DNA of 64,000 nucleotides from Mucilaginibacter rubeus (GTDB lineage: Bacteria > Bacteroidota > Bacteroidia > Sphingobacteriales > Sphingobacteriaceae): contig NZ_BMKD01000009.1 in assembly GCF_014643835.1 (NCBI RefSeq), positions 62,001 through 126,000 on the forward strand. Reading direction: 5' to 3'. A model generated the notes under the pieces. The model had not been told where the DNA came from. It saw only the letters and a list, made by a program, of their open reading frames with translations, and did not search any database. The first letter of the stretch is position 1. Each line of letters starts with the position of its first letter. Positions 8,300-55,834 of the stretch are shown here, in pieces. The translations under genes were made by a program, and so were the position numbers.

Positions 8300-9907
8300 T
8301 TAATCAGCGTTTCCGTGCAGGTACGAGTTATTATTCCTGATCTCCACGTTACCTTCGCTATCCTGCATCAGGGAAAAACGTGAGATCTGGCTTTCGTCAG
8401 ATGCCGGGGTATCCTGCAGGGCTATCTCTTTACGTTTATAAGCCGGAACATTTTCCAATTCCTGAATATTACCTGTACGCAGTTTCATGCTCAGGTCTTT
8501 CAGTCTCATAATGCGCTCGCGCGATTTTTTTAACTGCTCTTCTATAGATTCGTTGGTTTTGTTATCATCAGCCCCAACAGGTTGCGGTGCAGGAGTTGGC
8601 TCTGGTTCAGGCTCGGGCATACGTGGCTGTTCCCTTACAGGCTGCTCATAGCTCACCGGCTCACTCATTTTAAAAGTGAAACCAGCAGTATCCGGCTCGT
8701 TATCAACCTCTGGCTCTTCATTCATTAGGCTATGCCTTACAACAGCAGGTTCTTCCTGGCGACTACCGGCAAACATATCAAACAACCCAGCTTGCTTTGC
8801 ATCTTCTTTAGGTGCTTTAGCATAAGGCTCGGCAGGAGCATCAACCTTAACTGGTTTAATAAATTCGTTAACCGGCCTTGCCTGCTGAGGCTCTTCGGGA
8901 ACCAGCATTGAAACTATTTTCTTGTTGCTGTTTTCCTTTTCGCGCTCATCTTTGGTTTGGAAACCGGTAGCAATAATGGTTACCGATAATTGCTCACCCA
9001 GGTTTTCGTCGATACAGTTACCCCAGATCAGGTCAGCAGCTAAGCCGGCTTCTTCCTGGATATAATCAGTAATTACGCTGATCTCATCCATGGTAACCTC
9101 TTTAAGGCCCGAGCTGATGTTCAGCAATATATACCTTGCACCTTCAATCTCATTATCTTTCAACAATGGTGATGCCAATGCACCTTCAACAGCTTTAAGG
9201 GCACGGTTTTCACCATCGGCGCTAAAGCTGCCCATGATAGATACACCGCTATCCTTCATTACCGTGCGCACATCTTTAAAGTCGACGTTGATATAGCCCG
9301 GCAAGGTGATGATCTCGGCAATACCTTTAGCTGCTGTAGTCAATATATTATCAGCCTGGGCAAATGCAGAGCTCATTGTCAGGTTACCAAAGATCTGCCG
9401 AAGCCTGTCGTTCGAGATCACCAGAAACGAATCGACATACTTGCGCAGTTCTTCCAAACCAGCATCCGCCTGCATTTTACGGCGTTTACCTTCAAAAGAG
9501 AAAGGTGTGGTTATGATACCCACCGTTAATATATCCATTTCGCGCGCAGCCTTGGCAATGATAGGGCTTGCGCCTGTACCTGTACCACCGCCCATACCAG
9601 CTGTGATAAACAGCATTTTGGTATTAACGCCCAACATCTGTTTAATATCGTCGATATTTTCAATAGCCGAATTTTTGCCTACTTCGGGTATTGAGCCTGC
9701 ACCCATGCCCTCGGTTAAACTGGCACCCAATTGCACCTTGTTAGGTATAGGGCTCAGCTCCAATGCCTGGGCATCAGTGTTGCATATTATAAAATCAACA
9801 CCGGTAATTCCTTGCCTGTACATATGGTTTACCGCGTTACCACCACCACCGCCAACACCAATTACCTTGATGATTGACGATTTTTCTTTTAACATTTCAA
9901 AATGCAT
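8300..9907 (-). CDS. ftsZ: cell division GTPase FtsZ
   Basis: The tubulin-like GTPase that polymerises into the division ring. The nucleotide-binding IKVIGVGGGGGNAVNHM (about 13-29) and the tubulin signature GMGGGTGTG (104-112) are intact, as are the T7-loop features. At 535 residues it is much longer than the roughly 380-residue E. coli protein. The excess is a Pro/Glu/Gln-rich linker (about 335-480) and a tail ending NNNSYLHGNAD, as in other Bacteroidota. It is the last gene of the cluster and is separated from ftsA by 130 bases containing three DnaA-box matches; a terminator follows. Confidence 0.98.
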   Translation of the reverse strand: MHFEMLKEKSSIIKVIGVGGGGGNAVNHMYRQGITGVDFIICNTDAQALELSPIPNKVQLGASLTEGMGAGSIPEVGKNSAIENIDDIKQMLGVNTKMLFITAGMGGGTGTGASPIIAKAAREMDILTVGIITTPFSFEGKRRKMQADAGLEELRKYVDSFLVISNDRLRQIFGNLTMSSAFAQADNILTTAAKGIAEIITLPGYINVDFKDVRTVMKDSGVSIMGSFSADGENRALKAVEGALASPLLKDNEIEGARYILLNISSGLKEVTMDEISVITDYIQEEAGLAADLIWGNCIDENLGEQLSVTIIATGFQTKDEREKENSNKKIVSMLVPEEPQQARPVNEFIKPVKVDAPAEPYAKAPKEDAKQAGLFDMFAGSRQEEPAVVRHSLMNEEPEVDNEPDTAGFTFKMSEPVSYEQPVREQPRMPEPEPEPTPAPQPVGADDNKTNESIEEQLKKSRERIMRLKDLSMKLRTGNIQELENVPAYKRKEIALQDTPASDESQISRFSLMQDSEGNVEIRNNNSYLHGNAD

Positions 9908-9986
9908 AATCTTCGTTTTCAGCTATATGTAATTCAACCCAACATTAGATTTTACCATCGTAATAATAACACTTTTTCAACAAGAT

Positions 9987-10034
9987 TTATCCACATTTGT
10001 GAGCAATGTGAATAAGTTTAACCCTTGTGAATAA
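9987..10034. promoter_or_regulatory. cluster of three DnaA-box matches between ftsA and ftsZ
   Basis: The 130-base ftsA-ftsZ gap contains TTATCCACA at 9987-9995 and TTATTCACA twice on the minus strand (complements of 10007-10015 and 10026-10034). All three fit TTATNCACA. They lie 80-127 bases upstream of the ftsZ ATG and immediately after the ftsA stop. By base-composition chance only about two such sites would be expected in the whole window, so three in 48 bases is striking. Confidence 0.65.
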
Positions 10035-10037
10035 ATA

Positions 10038-11381
10038 TTATTTCAGAAAGTCCTCATCCTTAATGTCATCCTTAATAAATGTGATGCTTTTTTTCAGCAG
10101 CCTGTCTAACAAGCCCCCTTCTTTACTTTTCGCATCGTACTTTGGCTTAGCCGTTTTCACTTCGGCAGGGATCGCTTCATTCATGTATTCCATTTTCTGG
10201 ATCCCTTTAATGAGCAAACCAATACCGGTAGCAAAAGTTGGGCTCTGCAATTCTTCGTATGTACCTTTCGGCAGCACTTCGTTTTTAGCCAGGTGCTCGG
10301 TTGGGTAACCTACGCGGCAATCCAAACCGGTAACAAACTCAACCAGTTGACGCAAGTGTTTCAACTGCGCACCACCACCTGTTATCACGATACCAGCAAT
10401 CAGCTTTTTCTCGTAGCCTGATGATTTGATCTCGTAGTAAACATGCTCCACGATCTCTTCCATACGGGCTTGAATTACATAAGCCAGGTTTTTCACCGAA
10501 ATTTCTTTTGGCTCACGGCCACGCAAACCTGGCACACATACAATCTCATTTTCCTTGTTCTCATCGGCCAGGGCAGATCCAAACCTTACTTTCAGTTGCT
10601 CGGCAATGTTGCGCATTACTGAACAGCCTTCGCGGATATCCTCAGTTACACTATTGCCGCCAAAAGGGATAACAGCTGTATGGCGAATGATACCTTCATG
10701 GAAAATAGCTACGTCGGTAGTACCGCCACCGATATCAACCAAAACCACGCCGGCTTCTTTTTCCTCTTCGCTCAAAACAGATTCTGAAGATGCCAGCGGC
10801 TCAAGGATCAGTTCCTGGCTCTCCAGGCTGGCCTTGTTAACACATTTTACAATGTTTTTAATGGCCGTAACCTGACCAGATATAATATGGAAGTTAGCCT
10901 CAAGCCTAACGCCAGCCATACCTATCGGATCTTTGATCCCAGGTTCATTATCCACAGTAAACTCCTGTGGCAACACATGGATGATCTCCTCGCCCGGAGG
11001 CATCACCAGGTTATACATATCCTCTATCAGCTTATCAATATCCTTACGACCGATCTCTGATTGCAGATCGCGACGGGTTATTAAACCGCGGTGTTGCAAG
11101 CTTTTGATGTGCTGACCTGCAATGCCTACGTTCACTACCCTGATTTCTACATTTGATTGCGAGCCCGCCACCTCCACCGCCTGATGAATGCCTTGTACTG
11201 TTTTATCTATATTTGACACCACGCCGCGCGTCACCCCCGCAGATTCGGCCTTGCCAATCCCTAAAACCTCAATCTTCCCGTTCTTGCTCCTGCGCCCAAC
11301 AATGGCACATATCTTGGTAGTCCCGATATCCAATCCTACTACAATTGGCGAACTTTTTTCCTGAGTTGAGCTTTTGTCCAT
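10038..11381 (-). CDS. ftsA: cell division protein FtsA
   Basis: An actin-like ATPase that tethers FtsZ to the membrane and helps recruit late division proteins. The phosphate-1 motif VGLDIGTTKICAIVG is at 15-29, the SHS2-type FtsA-specific 1C domain follows, and phosphate-2 VVLVDIGGGTTDVAIF lies in the middle. The 447 residues are slightly longer than usual. A C-terminal LLDRLLKKSITFIKDDI stretch can form the amphipathic membrane-targeting helix, although about ten residues follow it. The start is one base from the ftsQ stop, so the two are likely translationally coupled. Confidence 0.97.
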   Translation of the reverse strand: MDKSSTQEKSSPIVVGLDIGTTKICAIVGRRSKNGKIEVLGIGKAESAGVTRGVVSNIDKTVQGIHQAVEVAGSQSNVEIRVVNVGIAGQHIKSLQHRGLITRRDLQSEIGRKDIDKLIEDMYNLVMPPGEEIIHVLPQEFTVDNEPGIKDPIGMAGVRLEANFHIISGQVTAIKNIVKCVNKASLESQELILEPLASSESVLSEEEKEAGVVLVDIGGGTTDVAIFHEGIIRHTAVIPFGGNSVTEDIREGCSVMRNIAEQLKVRFGSALADENKENEIVCVPGLRGREPKEISVKNLAYVIQARMEEIVEHVYYEIKSSGYEKKLIAGIVITGGGAQLKHLRQLVEFVTGLDCRVGYPTEHLAKNEVLPKGTYEELQSPTFATGIGLLIKGIQKMEYMNEAIPAEVKTAKPKYDAKSKEGGLLDRLLKKSITFIKDDIKDEDFLK

Positions 11382-22980: not shown

Positions 22981-23879
22981 TTTTTTACAGCTATCCTTAA
23001 TTTAGCGCTCCGTGCCCTGTTATTTTTGGTTATCTCTTCTGCCGATGCCGTTACAGCCCCGCGGCTCACTGCGTCAAGCGGTTTATTATCGTTTCCATAA
23101 AGGTCTTTCTCCACCTCGCCGCTGAACTTGCCTTTGGTTATGAAGTTTTTTACCAGCCTGTCCTCAAGCGAATGGTATGACATTACCACCAACCTGCCTC
23201 CAACACCTAAAACCTCGGCCGACTGCGTTAAAAAATCTTTTAAAGCCTCCAGCTCCTGATTAACCTCTATCCTTAATGCCTGAAACACTTGTGCCAGGTA
23301 TTTATTTTCTTTTCCTTTCGGGATGCGTGCGCTGATCACATTTTTCAGATCAGCAATGGTAACTATTGGCATATTCAACCTCGCGGTAGCAATAGTTTCG
23401 GCCAATGATTTCGCATTCTGAATTTCTCCGTAAATGCCAAAAATCCGGTGCAGGTCGGCAACCGAATAGTTATTTACCACATCCTTTGCAGTTAGCTCGC
23501 CCAACTGGTTCATGCGCATATCCAGCCCGGCATCAAACCGAATGGAAAACCCTCGATCCGCCTCATCAAACTGGTGCGATGACACGCCCAAATCGGCCAG
23601 AATCCCGTTTACCGGGATAGCCCCATGTAAACGGCAAAAGTTTTTGAGATACCTGAAATTCTGATCTACAAAAACAAAACGTTCATCATCAATTAAATTC
23701 CGCTGCGCATCGGCATCCTGATCAAAAGCGATCAGCCTGCCGTTAGGCCCCAGGTGTTTTAAGATCTCGCGCGAATGCCCGCCACCGCCAAAAGTCACAT
23801 CCACATAAGTACCGTCCGGATCAATGTTTAGCCCATCAATACATTCCTTCAGCATTACCGGTACATGGTACTCACTCAT
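22977..23879 (-). CDS. rsmH: 16S rRNA (cytosine1402-N4)-methyltransferase
   Basis: A SAM-dependent methyltransferase (also called MraW) acting on C1402 of 16S rRNA in the decoding centre. The N-terminus reads YHVPVMLKECIDGL, and the SAM-binding motif YVDVTFGGGGHSREIL is at about 25-40; LADLGVSSHQFDEADRGFS and the late SYHSLEDRLVK are also typical. At 300 residues it is a normal length. It overlaps mraZ by 4 bases, giving the canonical mraZ-rsmH start of a dcw cluster. Confidence 0.97.
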   Translation of the reverse strand: MSEYHVPVMLKECIDGLNIDPDGTYVDVTFGGGGHSREILKHLGPNGRLIAFDQDADAQRNLIDDERFVFVDQNFRYLKNFCRLHGAIPVNGILADLGVSSHQFDEADRGFSIRFDAGLDMRMNQLGELTAKDVVNNYSVADLHRIFGIYGEIQNAKSLAETIATARLNMPIVTIADLKNVISARIPKGKENKYLAQVFQALRIEVNQELEALKDFLTQSAEVLGVGGRLVVMSYHSLEDRLVKNFITKGKFSGEVEKDLYGNDNKPLDAVSRGAVTASAEEITKNNRARSAKLRIAVKK

Positions 23880-24337
23880 TCCTGCTCCTTACTTTTATTG
23901 CCCATCACCCTTTTTGCCAGCGCTCCAAAACTTTTTGGCTCATCATCCATCAGCTTGCGATGCGCTTCGGCATCCCAAACTTCAATTTTATTCAGCTGGC
24001 AAGCCAACACTACATCACCTTTTATACCCGCATATTCCAACAGAAACTTTGGCAATAATACCCTGCCGGCAGCATCAGGCATAAGCTCGGTGGCACCACG
24101 GGTAAAATATCGTATAAAGGCTATATTATCCTCTTCGTATTCATTAAGTTTGCTCAGTTCTTCAAGTCGTTTATCCCATTCCTTTTTAGTGTATATGACA
24201 AGGTATTTTTCAAACCCACGATTGACCACCAGGCCTTCAGATTCCAGTTCAGGAAGCTTTTTTTTAAGGCCAGCCGGTATCATCATCCTAAATTTAGGAT
24301 CAAGCTTACACTCAAATTCACCGGTTAAAAACGACAT
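23876..24337 (-). CDS. mraZ: transcriptional regulator MraZ
   Basis: A 153-residue DNA-binding protein made of two AbrB-like (SpoVT/MraZ) domains, which assembles into ring oligomers and regulates the dcw operon, including its own promoter. It starts at MSFLTGEFECKLDPKFRM, the standard N-terminus; an in-frame ATG 16 codons upstream would add an AT-rich extension lying in the leader. The DxKxR-type motifs of both halves are visible (KLDPKFRMMIP and DAAGRVLLP). Three 10-bp repeats that fit MraZ boxes are 44-73 bases upstream of this start. Confidence 0.95.
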   Translation of the reverse strand: MSFLTGEFECKLDPKFRMMIPAGLKKKLPELESEGLVVNRGFEKYLVIYTKKEWDKRLEELSKLNEYEEDNIAFIRYFTRGATELMPDAAGRVLLPKFLLEYAGIKGDVVLACQLNKIEVWDAEAHRKLMDDEPKSFGALAKRVMGNKSKEQE

Positions 24338-24380
24338 TGTATGACTTGGGCAATTTTGTAACGTAAAAGTAAATACTTTT

Positions 24381-24410
24381 ACCACTTTCTACCACTTTCC
24401 CCCACTAAAA
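24381..24410 (-). promoter_or_regulatory. MraZ-box array upstream of mraZ
   Basis: Three consecutive 10-base units, reading on the minus strand TTTTAGTGGG, GGAAAGTGGT and AGAAAGTGGT. The last two contain AAAGTGG, the same core and 10-base period described for Mycoplasma MraZ boxes (AAAGTG[T/G] repeats), and they resemble the spaced TGGGN repeats of E. coli. The position just before mraZ fits autoregulation. Confidence 0.75.
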
Positions 24411-54938: not shown

Positions 54939-55834
54939 AAATACTTGTCATAGGCTCCAAAGGATTTATCGGTTCGGCCTGTTACAGCTATTTTAAAAAT
55001 CAGCCAGGCTATGAAGTTTATGGCGCTGATGTGGTGGTAGAATATGACGATCCCAACTACTTTTTAATTGATGCTATCAACGCCGATTTTAAGAAGGTAT
55101 TTCATAAACAACAGTTCAATTGGTGTATTAACTGTGCAGGGGCTGCGTCAGTGCCCGAATCATTCAATAACCCTGAGCGCGATTACCTGCTAAACGTTTA
55201 TCACCTTGTGAGCATCCTCAATGCCATAAAAGAAGGTAATGCCAATTGCAGGCTCATCCAATTGTCAAGCGCGGCAGTTTACGGTAATCCGCAAATGCTA
55301 CCTATTACAGAGTCCCATACGCTTAATCCGCTCTCACCCTATGGTGTGCATAAAAAACAAGCCGAAGAGCTCTGCCAGCTATATCATACTCATTTTAGCT
55401 TAAATGTTCATATCTTCCGTGTATTTTCGGCATATGGAGCCGGTTTGAAAAAGCAGCTGTTTTGGGACCTTTACAAAAAATCGCAGACTCAAACAAATAT
55501 CACATTGTTCGGTACCGGTAACGAAACACGCGAATTTATTCATGTTACCGATATTGTAAATGCCATGAACCTATTTGTCAATGCCGATAGGCCCGGGTTC
55601 AGCATTACAAATATTGCTAATAATAATACCATCACTATAACAACAGCAGCCAAAACTTTTTTGAAATATATAGGCTTTAGCGGCGGTTTATCATTTACAG
55701 GCACCAACCGCGTTGGCGATCCGTTATACTGGCAAGCCGATAACAGCCGGCTAATTAGCCTGGGCTACCAACAAAAAGTAAATTTTGAGGATGGTATTAA
55801 TATCTATTGTAAATGGCTAAAAGGAAAAGAATAG
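54935..55834 (+). CDS. NAD-dependent sugar epimerase/dehydratase
   Basis: A 299-residue extended short-chain dehydrogenase. The Rossmann motif GSKGFIGSACY (about 7-17), the NCAGAASVPES strand and the catalytic YGVHKK (Y-x3-K) are present, with a Ser/Thr just upstream in LSSAAVYG. It probably makes or modifies a nucleotide sugar, but 4-epimerase, reductase and dehydratase cannot be told apart from sequence alone. The end overlaps the next gene by 22 bases. Confidence 0.88.
   Translation: MKILVIGSKGFIGSACYSYFKNQPGYEVYGADVVVEYDDPNYFLIDAINADFKKVFHKQQFNWCINCAGAASVPESFNNPERDYLLNVYHLVSILNAIKEGNANCRLIQLSSAAVYGNPQMLPITESHTLNPLSPYGVHKKQAEELCQLYHTHFSLNVHIFRVFSAYGAGLKKQLFWDLYKKSQTQTNITLFGTGNETREFIHVTDIVNAMNLFVNADRPGFSITNIANNNTITITTAAKTFLKYIGFSGGLSFTGTNRVGDPLYWQADNSRLISLGYQQKVNFEDGINIYCKWLKGKE

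Follow-up and report, generated by a model that had tools for sequence, protein, structure and literature searches.

The stretch of DNA analysed here (the window; 64,000 nucleotides) carries a dcw cluster on the minus strand, in which murC, ftsQ, ftsA, a 130-bp gap and ftsZ surround an array of short repeats. Except for ftsZ, the dcw genes were named from their sequence and order. The FtsZ protein of the window is 100% identical to FtsZ of Mucilaginibacter gossypii, and the genus is Mucilaginibacter, family Sphingobacteriaceae. The features of the locus are as follows.

8300-9907, minus strand: ftsZ, 535 aa.
9908-10037: the ftsA-ftsZ gap, 130 bp, which encloses the complete array.
9960-9968, minus strand: the TA[AT]TATTAC element, 5 bp beyond box 4; putative ftsZ core promoter.
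9974-9982, plus strand: box 4, TTTTCAACA; inverted, weak relative to the DnaA consensus.
9987-9995, plus strand: box 3, TTATCCACA in the window and TTTTCCACA in 82 of 114 arrays; inverted relative to ftsZ.
9998-10006, minus strand: box 2b, TTGCTCACA in the window; a degenerate box abutting box 2, with the family pattern ~TT[AG]TNNACA.
10007-10015, minus strand: box 2, TTATTCACA in the window and TTTTCCACA in 87 of 114 arrays; oriented toward ftsZ.
10026-10034, minus strand: box 1, TTATTCACA; oriented toward ftsZ, it is the first box of an array that 114 of 119 regions of the family share.
10038-11381, minus strand: ftsA, 447 aa; named by sequence and gene order, without a family search.

The first-pass annotation had placed three TTATNCACA sites in the gap, 80-127 bases upstream of the ftsZ ATG, and both this distance and the positions and strands it gave them (boxes 1, 2 and 3 above) are correct. 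It counted one other perfect match in the window and overlooked two further strict ones: TTATCCACA at 10948-10956 (plus strand), inside ftsA and about 0.9 kb from the array, and TTATGCACA at 55345-55353. The total number of TTATNCACA matches in the window is ordinary (6 found and 3.76 expected; a count of 6 is attained in 20 of 100 shuffles). In none of 150 windows simulated with a first-order Markov model did three starts fall within 60 bp, and none of 20000 random 130-mers with the dinucleotide make-up of the gap held three TTATNCACA sites. The clustering of the three sites in the ftsA-ftsZ gap is not chance. All three boxes are present as claimed, but two weaker members of the array, boxes 4 (TTTTCAACA) and 2b (TTGCTCACA), had been missed; these stand out only when the gap is compared with that of relatives.

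Counting strict TTATNCACA sites in Mucilaginibacter loci mostly yields 0-2 boxes, a misleadingly poor picture of conservation, and reading the sequences themselves reveals a steady, relaxed array. Its commonest order is TTATTCACA, TTTTCCACA, inverted TGTGGAAAA and inverted TGTGGAAAA or TGTTGAAAA, followed by TA[AT]TATTAC, and the same array follows the ftsA stop in other genera of Sphingobacteriaceae. The layout consists of two boxes pointing toward ftsZ, a degenerate box that abuts the second and makes up the spacer between boxes 2 and 3, two inverted boxes, and TA[AT]TATTAC 5 bp further on. We compared 119 regions of the family, comprising the window, 78 Mucilaginibacter loci (including five near relatives of the window, L001-L005) and 40 others; the latter come from the better-scoring part of the ftsZ match list and represent 17 genera, g5, g8, g9, g11, g17, g23 and g24 not being among them. 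Two loci, L057 and L061, were left out because their upstream sequence is missing. A finder with loose spacing limits, anchored on TTTTCCACA and favouring that letter at every position alike, located a four-box array in 114 of the 119 regions, above all 150 shuffles: the arrays score 27-36 of 36 matches and the shuffles at most 26, with the lowest arrays (L065, L066, L078 and L132, at 27-28) being marginal. None of 20 regions from other Bacteroidia families has the array, their scores of 19-24 falling inside the shuffle range. Box starts are 18/19, 19/20 and 13 bp apart, so that four geometries describe 110 of the 114 arrays, and the distance from the end of box 4 to the start of ftsZ is 64-67 bases in 99 of the 114. 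The five family regions that lack the array are L049, L079 and L111-L113, the last being all three members of genus g3.

We built a sequence-only model (R1) from 77 arrays, using an alignment (A1) that omits L129 and so holds 77 of the 78 references. In a class-wide draw of 395 genomes, 15 family genomes match R1 at E<=4.6e-11 among the rows listed; among these rows, too, the best of the 380 class genomes outside the family reaches E=3.5e-5, and none reaches E<=1e-6. The genomes without a match are listed in part, with none from the family among those listed. Searching 399 family genomes returned 375 matches at E<=0.01 and 360 at E<=1e-6 (manual count), 15 of the 375 being weaker than 1e-6. 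Strong matches span 18 of 25 family genera among the rows listed (the automatic tally at E<=0.01 gives 20 of 25); genus g17 matches, and in g3, g5, g8, g9, g11, g23 and g24 the rows listed hold no match or a weak one (E 0.0027-0.01). Since five of 119 regions are without the array and strong matches are missing from seven of 25 genera, the array is dispensable. All 21 match places that we compared with ftsZ positions end 50-73 bases before the ftsZ match, and of the weak matches outside the family (E 3.5e-5 to 0.01), the five loci inspected (L313-L317) show no FtsZ motif within their 3 kb. The first-pass annotation had let its reading hang on conservation in close relatives, and the array proves to be kept across most of the family.

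To describe which changes the boxes tolerate, we used parsimony on the ftsZ tree (79 leaves, 77 with the array). Summed over the four boxes, positions 1-9 changed 7, 1, 23, 2, 17, 22, 0, 1 and 1 times, with at most 6 changes per box and site. Elsewhere, three of the spacers changed 20.0, 16.2 and 16.0 times per site and the box 2-3 spacer 8.0 times; within the latter, T4 of box 2b changed twice, A7 never, C8 once and A9 five times. The corresponding values are 3.3 for TA[AT]TATTAC and 9.7 for the 20 bases following it. The most variable box positions are 3, 5 and 6, with positions 2, 4 and 7-9 hardly changing. Positions 3 and 5 are also the free positions of the DnaA consensus TTWTNCACA, which positions 2, 3, 4, 5 and 7-9 fit in nearly all 114 arrays. 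At position 6, however, A is found in 37, 7, 7 and 42 of the 114 arrays for boxes 1-4, and TTWTNCACA disallows it there. All four boxes are strict in 37 arrays, three in 44, two in 27 and one in 6. Box 2 of the window's clade, TTATTCACA, differs from the TTTTCCACA of most relatives at two positions, both inside TTWTNCACA. The first-pass reading of the sites as DnaA boxes is thus partly supported: the array is conserved, and at two of its three most variable positions the tolerated changes fit DnaA. The strict TTATNCACA on which that reading relied, however, belongs to the clade of the window, most relatives having TTTTCCACA or TTTTCAACA.

Positions 3 and 5 also depend on one another. C5 is present in 235 of 250 TTTT boxes with C6 and in 32 of 90 TTAT boxes with C6, counts that come from related rows and partly reflect box identity, so that a p-value drawn from them is not a probability. 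The commonest TTAT form is TTATT (51 of 90), to which boxes 1 and 2 of the window belong. E. coli DnaA requires C5 for good binding to TTTT boxes, and in TTAT boxes it binds C at position 5 better than A or G, and T most poorly (PMC5835720). The C5 dependence of TTTT boxes therefore resembles the preference of E. coli DnaA; the order in TTAT boxes does not, as T is commonest here and poorest there. Domain IV of the family's DnaA aligns with that of E. coli (1J1V) and retains the main DNA-contacting residues, R399, R401, R407, Q408 and GGRDH, one residue being different (T435 to S). Mismatches as such need not prevent binding, as B. subtilis DnaA reportedly tolerates up to three of them in a box (PMC4447404). 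Judged from sequence, DnaA is the best candidate binder of the array.

DnaA-type boxes clustered this tightly in an AT-rich gap could also mark the chromosomal origin, oriC, particularly as none of the dnaA loci read shows such a cluster, and as TTATCCACA, which occurs at 52 and 53 sites across the whole of G102 and G128, forms no tight cluster there (closest neighbours ~600-780 bp). GC skew speaks against this. In G102 the turn from negative to positive values falls near 0.3-0.8 Mb, whereas ftsZ lies at 4.26 of 5.30 Mb; the turn of G114 falls near 2.9-3.1 Mb, with ftsZ at 2.23 Mb. Sampling was coarse in both genomes, and one G102 sample, taken at 4.20 Mb and hence close to ftsZ, has a slightly positive skew. 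An origin is expected at the GC-skew minimum, and in these two genomes the array lies elsewhere, leaving it very improbable that the array is oriC. Three strict boxes within 400 bp were found neither in 460 kb of G102, a stretch from 5.14 Mb to 0.30 Mb that reaches only the edge of the turn, nor in 450 kb of G114, which spans it. Strict-type boxes lie within 330 bases upstream of dnaA at four of 19 loci (L153, L155, L164 and L165), and DnaA-type boxes were seen upstream of dnaA at none of the seven Mucilaginibacter loci with readable upstream sequence; five of the dnaA loci have no sequence before dnaA, and L156 just 105 bases. With no cluster at the dnaA loci or in the skew-minimum stretches that were read, TTWTNCACA is a presumptive DnaA box for the family. 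Two further observations concern these loci. A conserved AATATTCGATGTTCC-like element, devoid of DnaA-type boxes, stands ~60-90 bases before Mucilaginibacter dnaA (for example in L159-L163, L167 and L169). In G102 and G114 (L182-L201, L222-L241, L258-L297) the sampled skew minimum coincides with neither dnaA nor ftsZ, the stretches read show no dense cluster of DnaA boxes, and the usual marks did not reveal the origin.

We searched 19 genomes, 17 of which are single contigs, for pairs of boxes. Eleven of the 19 contain the inverted pair TTTTCCACA-N5..16-TGTGGAWAA, each of them once and always before ftsZ, and divergent pairs occur in none. Direct TTWTCCACA pairs gave 16 matches in nine of the 19 genomes, of which eight are at ftsZ, four are single matches elsewhere, and four are one repeated sequence in G030; the pattern TTATCCACA-N0..30-TTWTNCACA was absent from the five genomes searched for it. 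The four G030 places (L250, L254, L256 and L257) are identical direct box pairs, probably inside a repeated element.

A convergent palindrome that is found only before ftsZ in the genomes bearing it is what a dedicated regulator would leave, and the array might be the operator of another DNA-binding protein whose motif, TTWTNMACA, resembles the DnaA box. The exchange of C and A at position 6, which occurred as often on the tree as changes at positions 3 and 5, would suit such a protein, as would the absence of a similar cluster at dnaA and in the skew-minimum regions that were read. We nevertheless think this unlikely, though it deserves to be taken seriously: the tolerance and mutual dependence of positions 3 and 5 resemble E. 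coli DnaA, and unequal arms with a contiguous extra box would be unusual for a simple dimeric repressor.

The same pair searches bear on whether the gap serves to titrate or reactivate DnaA, in the manner of datA or DARS, and lies before ftsZ by happenstance. Half of the direct pairs and every inverted pair in the 19 genomes fall in the gap, and DARS1 and DARS2 are located in promoter regions (PMC5835720). E. coli datA and DARS are likewise small clusters of DnaA boxes outside the origin in that source (PMC5835720), and this is the only feature by which we liken them to the array. On the other hand, the array is tied to ftsZ and to TA[AT]TATTAC, as the narrow range of box 4 positions indicates, and its four to five boxes would probably hold few DnaA molecules; a titration site in this position is improbable.

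A third candidate is MraZ, a regulator of the dcw cluster. The operator of MraZ consists of direct GTGGK/TGGGN repeats with a period of ~10 bp. It shares with the array its gene cluster and GTGG-containing repeats, TGTGG being present inside boxes 3 and 4 of many relatives, and model R1 weakly cross-matches MraZ-like operators before mraZ in L313 and L316 (one genus; mraZ named from sequence). The array differs in its inverted arms and in its many boxes without GTGG, such as TTATTCACA. Direct repeats of the MraZ type at ~10-bp period are present before mraZ and absent from the ftsZ gap: the mraZ repeats of the window are three GTGGK at a 10-bp period, whereas box starts in the array are 18-20 and 13 bp apart. 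There is accordingly only a slim chance that MraZ binds the array. The three GTGGK repeats of the window, at 24381-24405 on the minus strand, stand shortly before mraZ and are presumably a typical MraZ operator, with a similar one before mraZ in L313 and L316; the mraZ ORF spans 23876-24385, its true ATG likely being near 24337.

Inverted boxes could, lastly, act in RNA, as the hairpin of a terminator or processing site. Boxes 2 and 3 are fully pairable in 80 of 114 arrays, and the RNA of the window folds slightly more favourably than shuffled sequence (z -2.06; matched by 8 of 200 shuffles). There is no covariation, however: over the 13 rows that are distinct, 102 of 117 pairs form where shuffled rows average 99.9 and 476 of 2000 shuffles do as well, and pairing between boxes 1 and 4 is no better than in shuffled sequence (283 of 360, compared with 285.9). 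No Rfam family reaches its threshold on 9700-10300. We give the hairpin almost no credence.

Returning to DnaA as the candidate binder, we asked how the array sits relative to the start of ftsZ transcription. TA[AT]TATTAC (TAATATTAC-type) persists where the array does not, in the three g3 regions (L111-L113), intact in L079 and in part in L049. We infer that this element is the ftsZ core promoter. A promoter rule for Bacteroidota, TAnnTTTG, is given in PMC9723704; applied to the gap, it allows two registers, neither of which is a good fit. As box 4 ends 5 bp from TA[AT]TATTAC, a protein bound there would touch the core promoter in either register. Taken together, we propose, with a probability of about 0.6, that the gap serves most Sphingobacteriaceae as the promoter region of ftsZ and that it contains a dedicated DnaA-binding array which would make ftsZ responsive to DnaA. 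DnaA would load on both arms of an array whose geometry is kept across the family, with two consensus-type boxes and the contiguous degenerate box facing two inverted boxes, the last of which would lie against or in the core promoter. Transcription of ftsZ would then depend on how much DnaA is present or on its nucleotide state. Given the overlap of box 4 with the likely core promoter, we lean toward repression by occlusion, which would be lifted once initiation has consumed or inactivated DnaA; we consider activation from boxes 1-3 almost as likely. A more elaborate version is tentative, and we rate it below even odds: that the array is a family-specific gate between replication and division, a convergent five-box DnaA array with a contiguous 9-bp tandem, the tightest consensus-type array that the scanned genomes contain and one that lies away from any recognisable origin, served by a family DnaA that would also accept A at position 6.

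DnaA boxes near ftsZ have precedents elsewhere. In Caulobacter, in vitro binding of DnaA to the region of the ftsZ promoter is reported, together with a dependence of ftsZ expression on the nucleotide switch of DnaA (PMC8203912, PMC3193534). The ftsZ promoter of Caulobacter crescentus likewise has DnaA boxes, two in number (PMC3193534, PMC8203912); here, in a different phylum, there are four to five predicted boxes, convergent and kept over most of a family. In E. coli, three DnaA boxes are likewise upstream of ftsZ, but within ftsQA, and they are reported to be without effect on ftsZ in the conditions tested (PMC8203912, PMC10532879), whereas the boxes of the array are in an intergenic gap under strong constraint. 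The commonest single box of the array, TTTTCCACA, is the R5-type box of mioC with C at position 5 (PMC5835720); mioC adjoins oriC (PMC8203912), whereas the array is far from the skew minimum in two genomes. Among the matches listed from the open-licence literature, we found no report of this array or of a link between DnaA and ftsZ in the phylum.

How Z-ring synthesis is coupled to replication initiation in bacteria is a long-standing question. A strongly constrained array at a putative ftsZ promoter, together with relatives that naturally lack it (g3 and Mucilaginibacter L049 and L079), offers a ready comparison. The first-pass annotation had suggested a replication-division link in a Bacteroidota; the conserved array agrees with this, but the trait belongs to one family and not to Bacteroidota at large. 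In summary, the conservation of the array suggests that most Sphingobacteriaceae may tie cell division to DNA replication at ftsZ.
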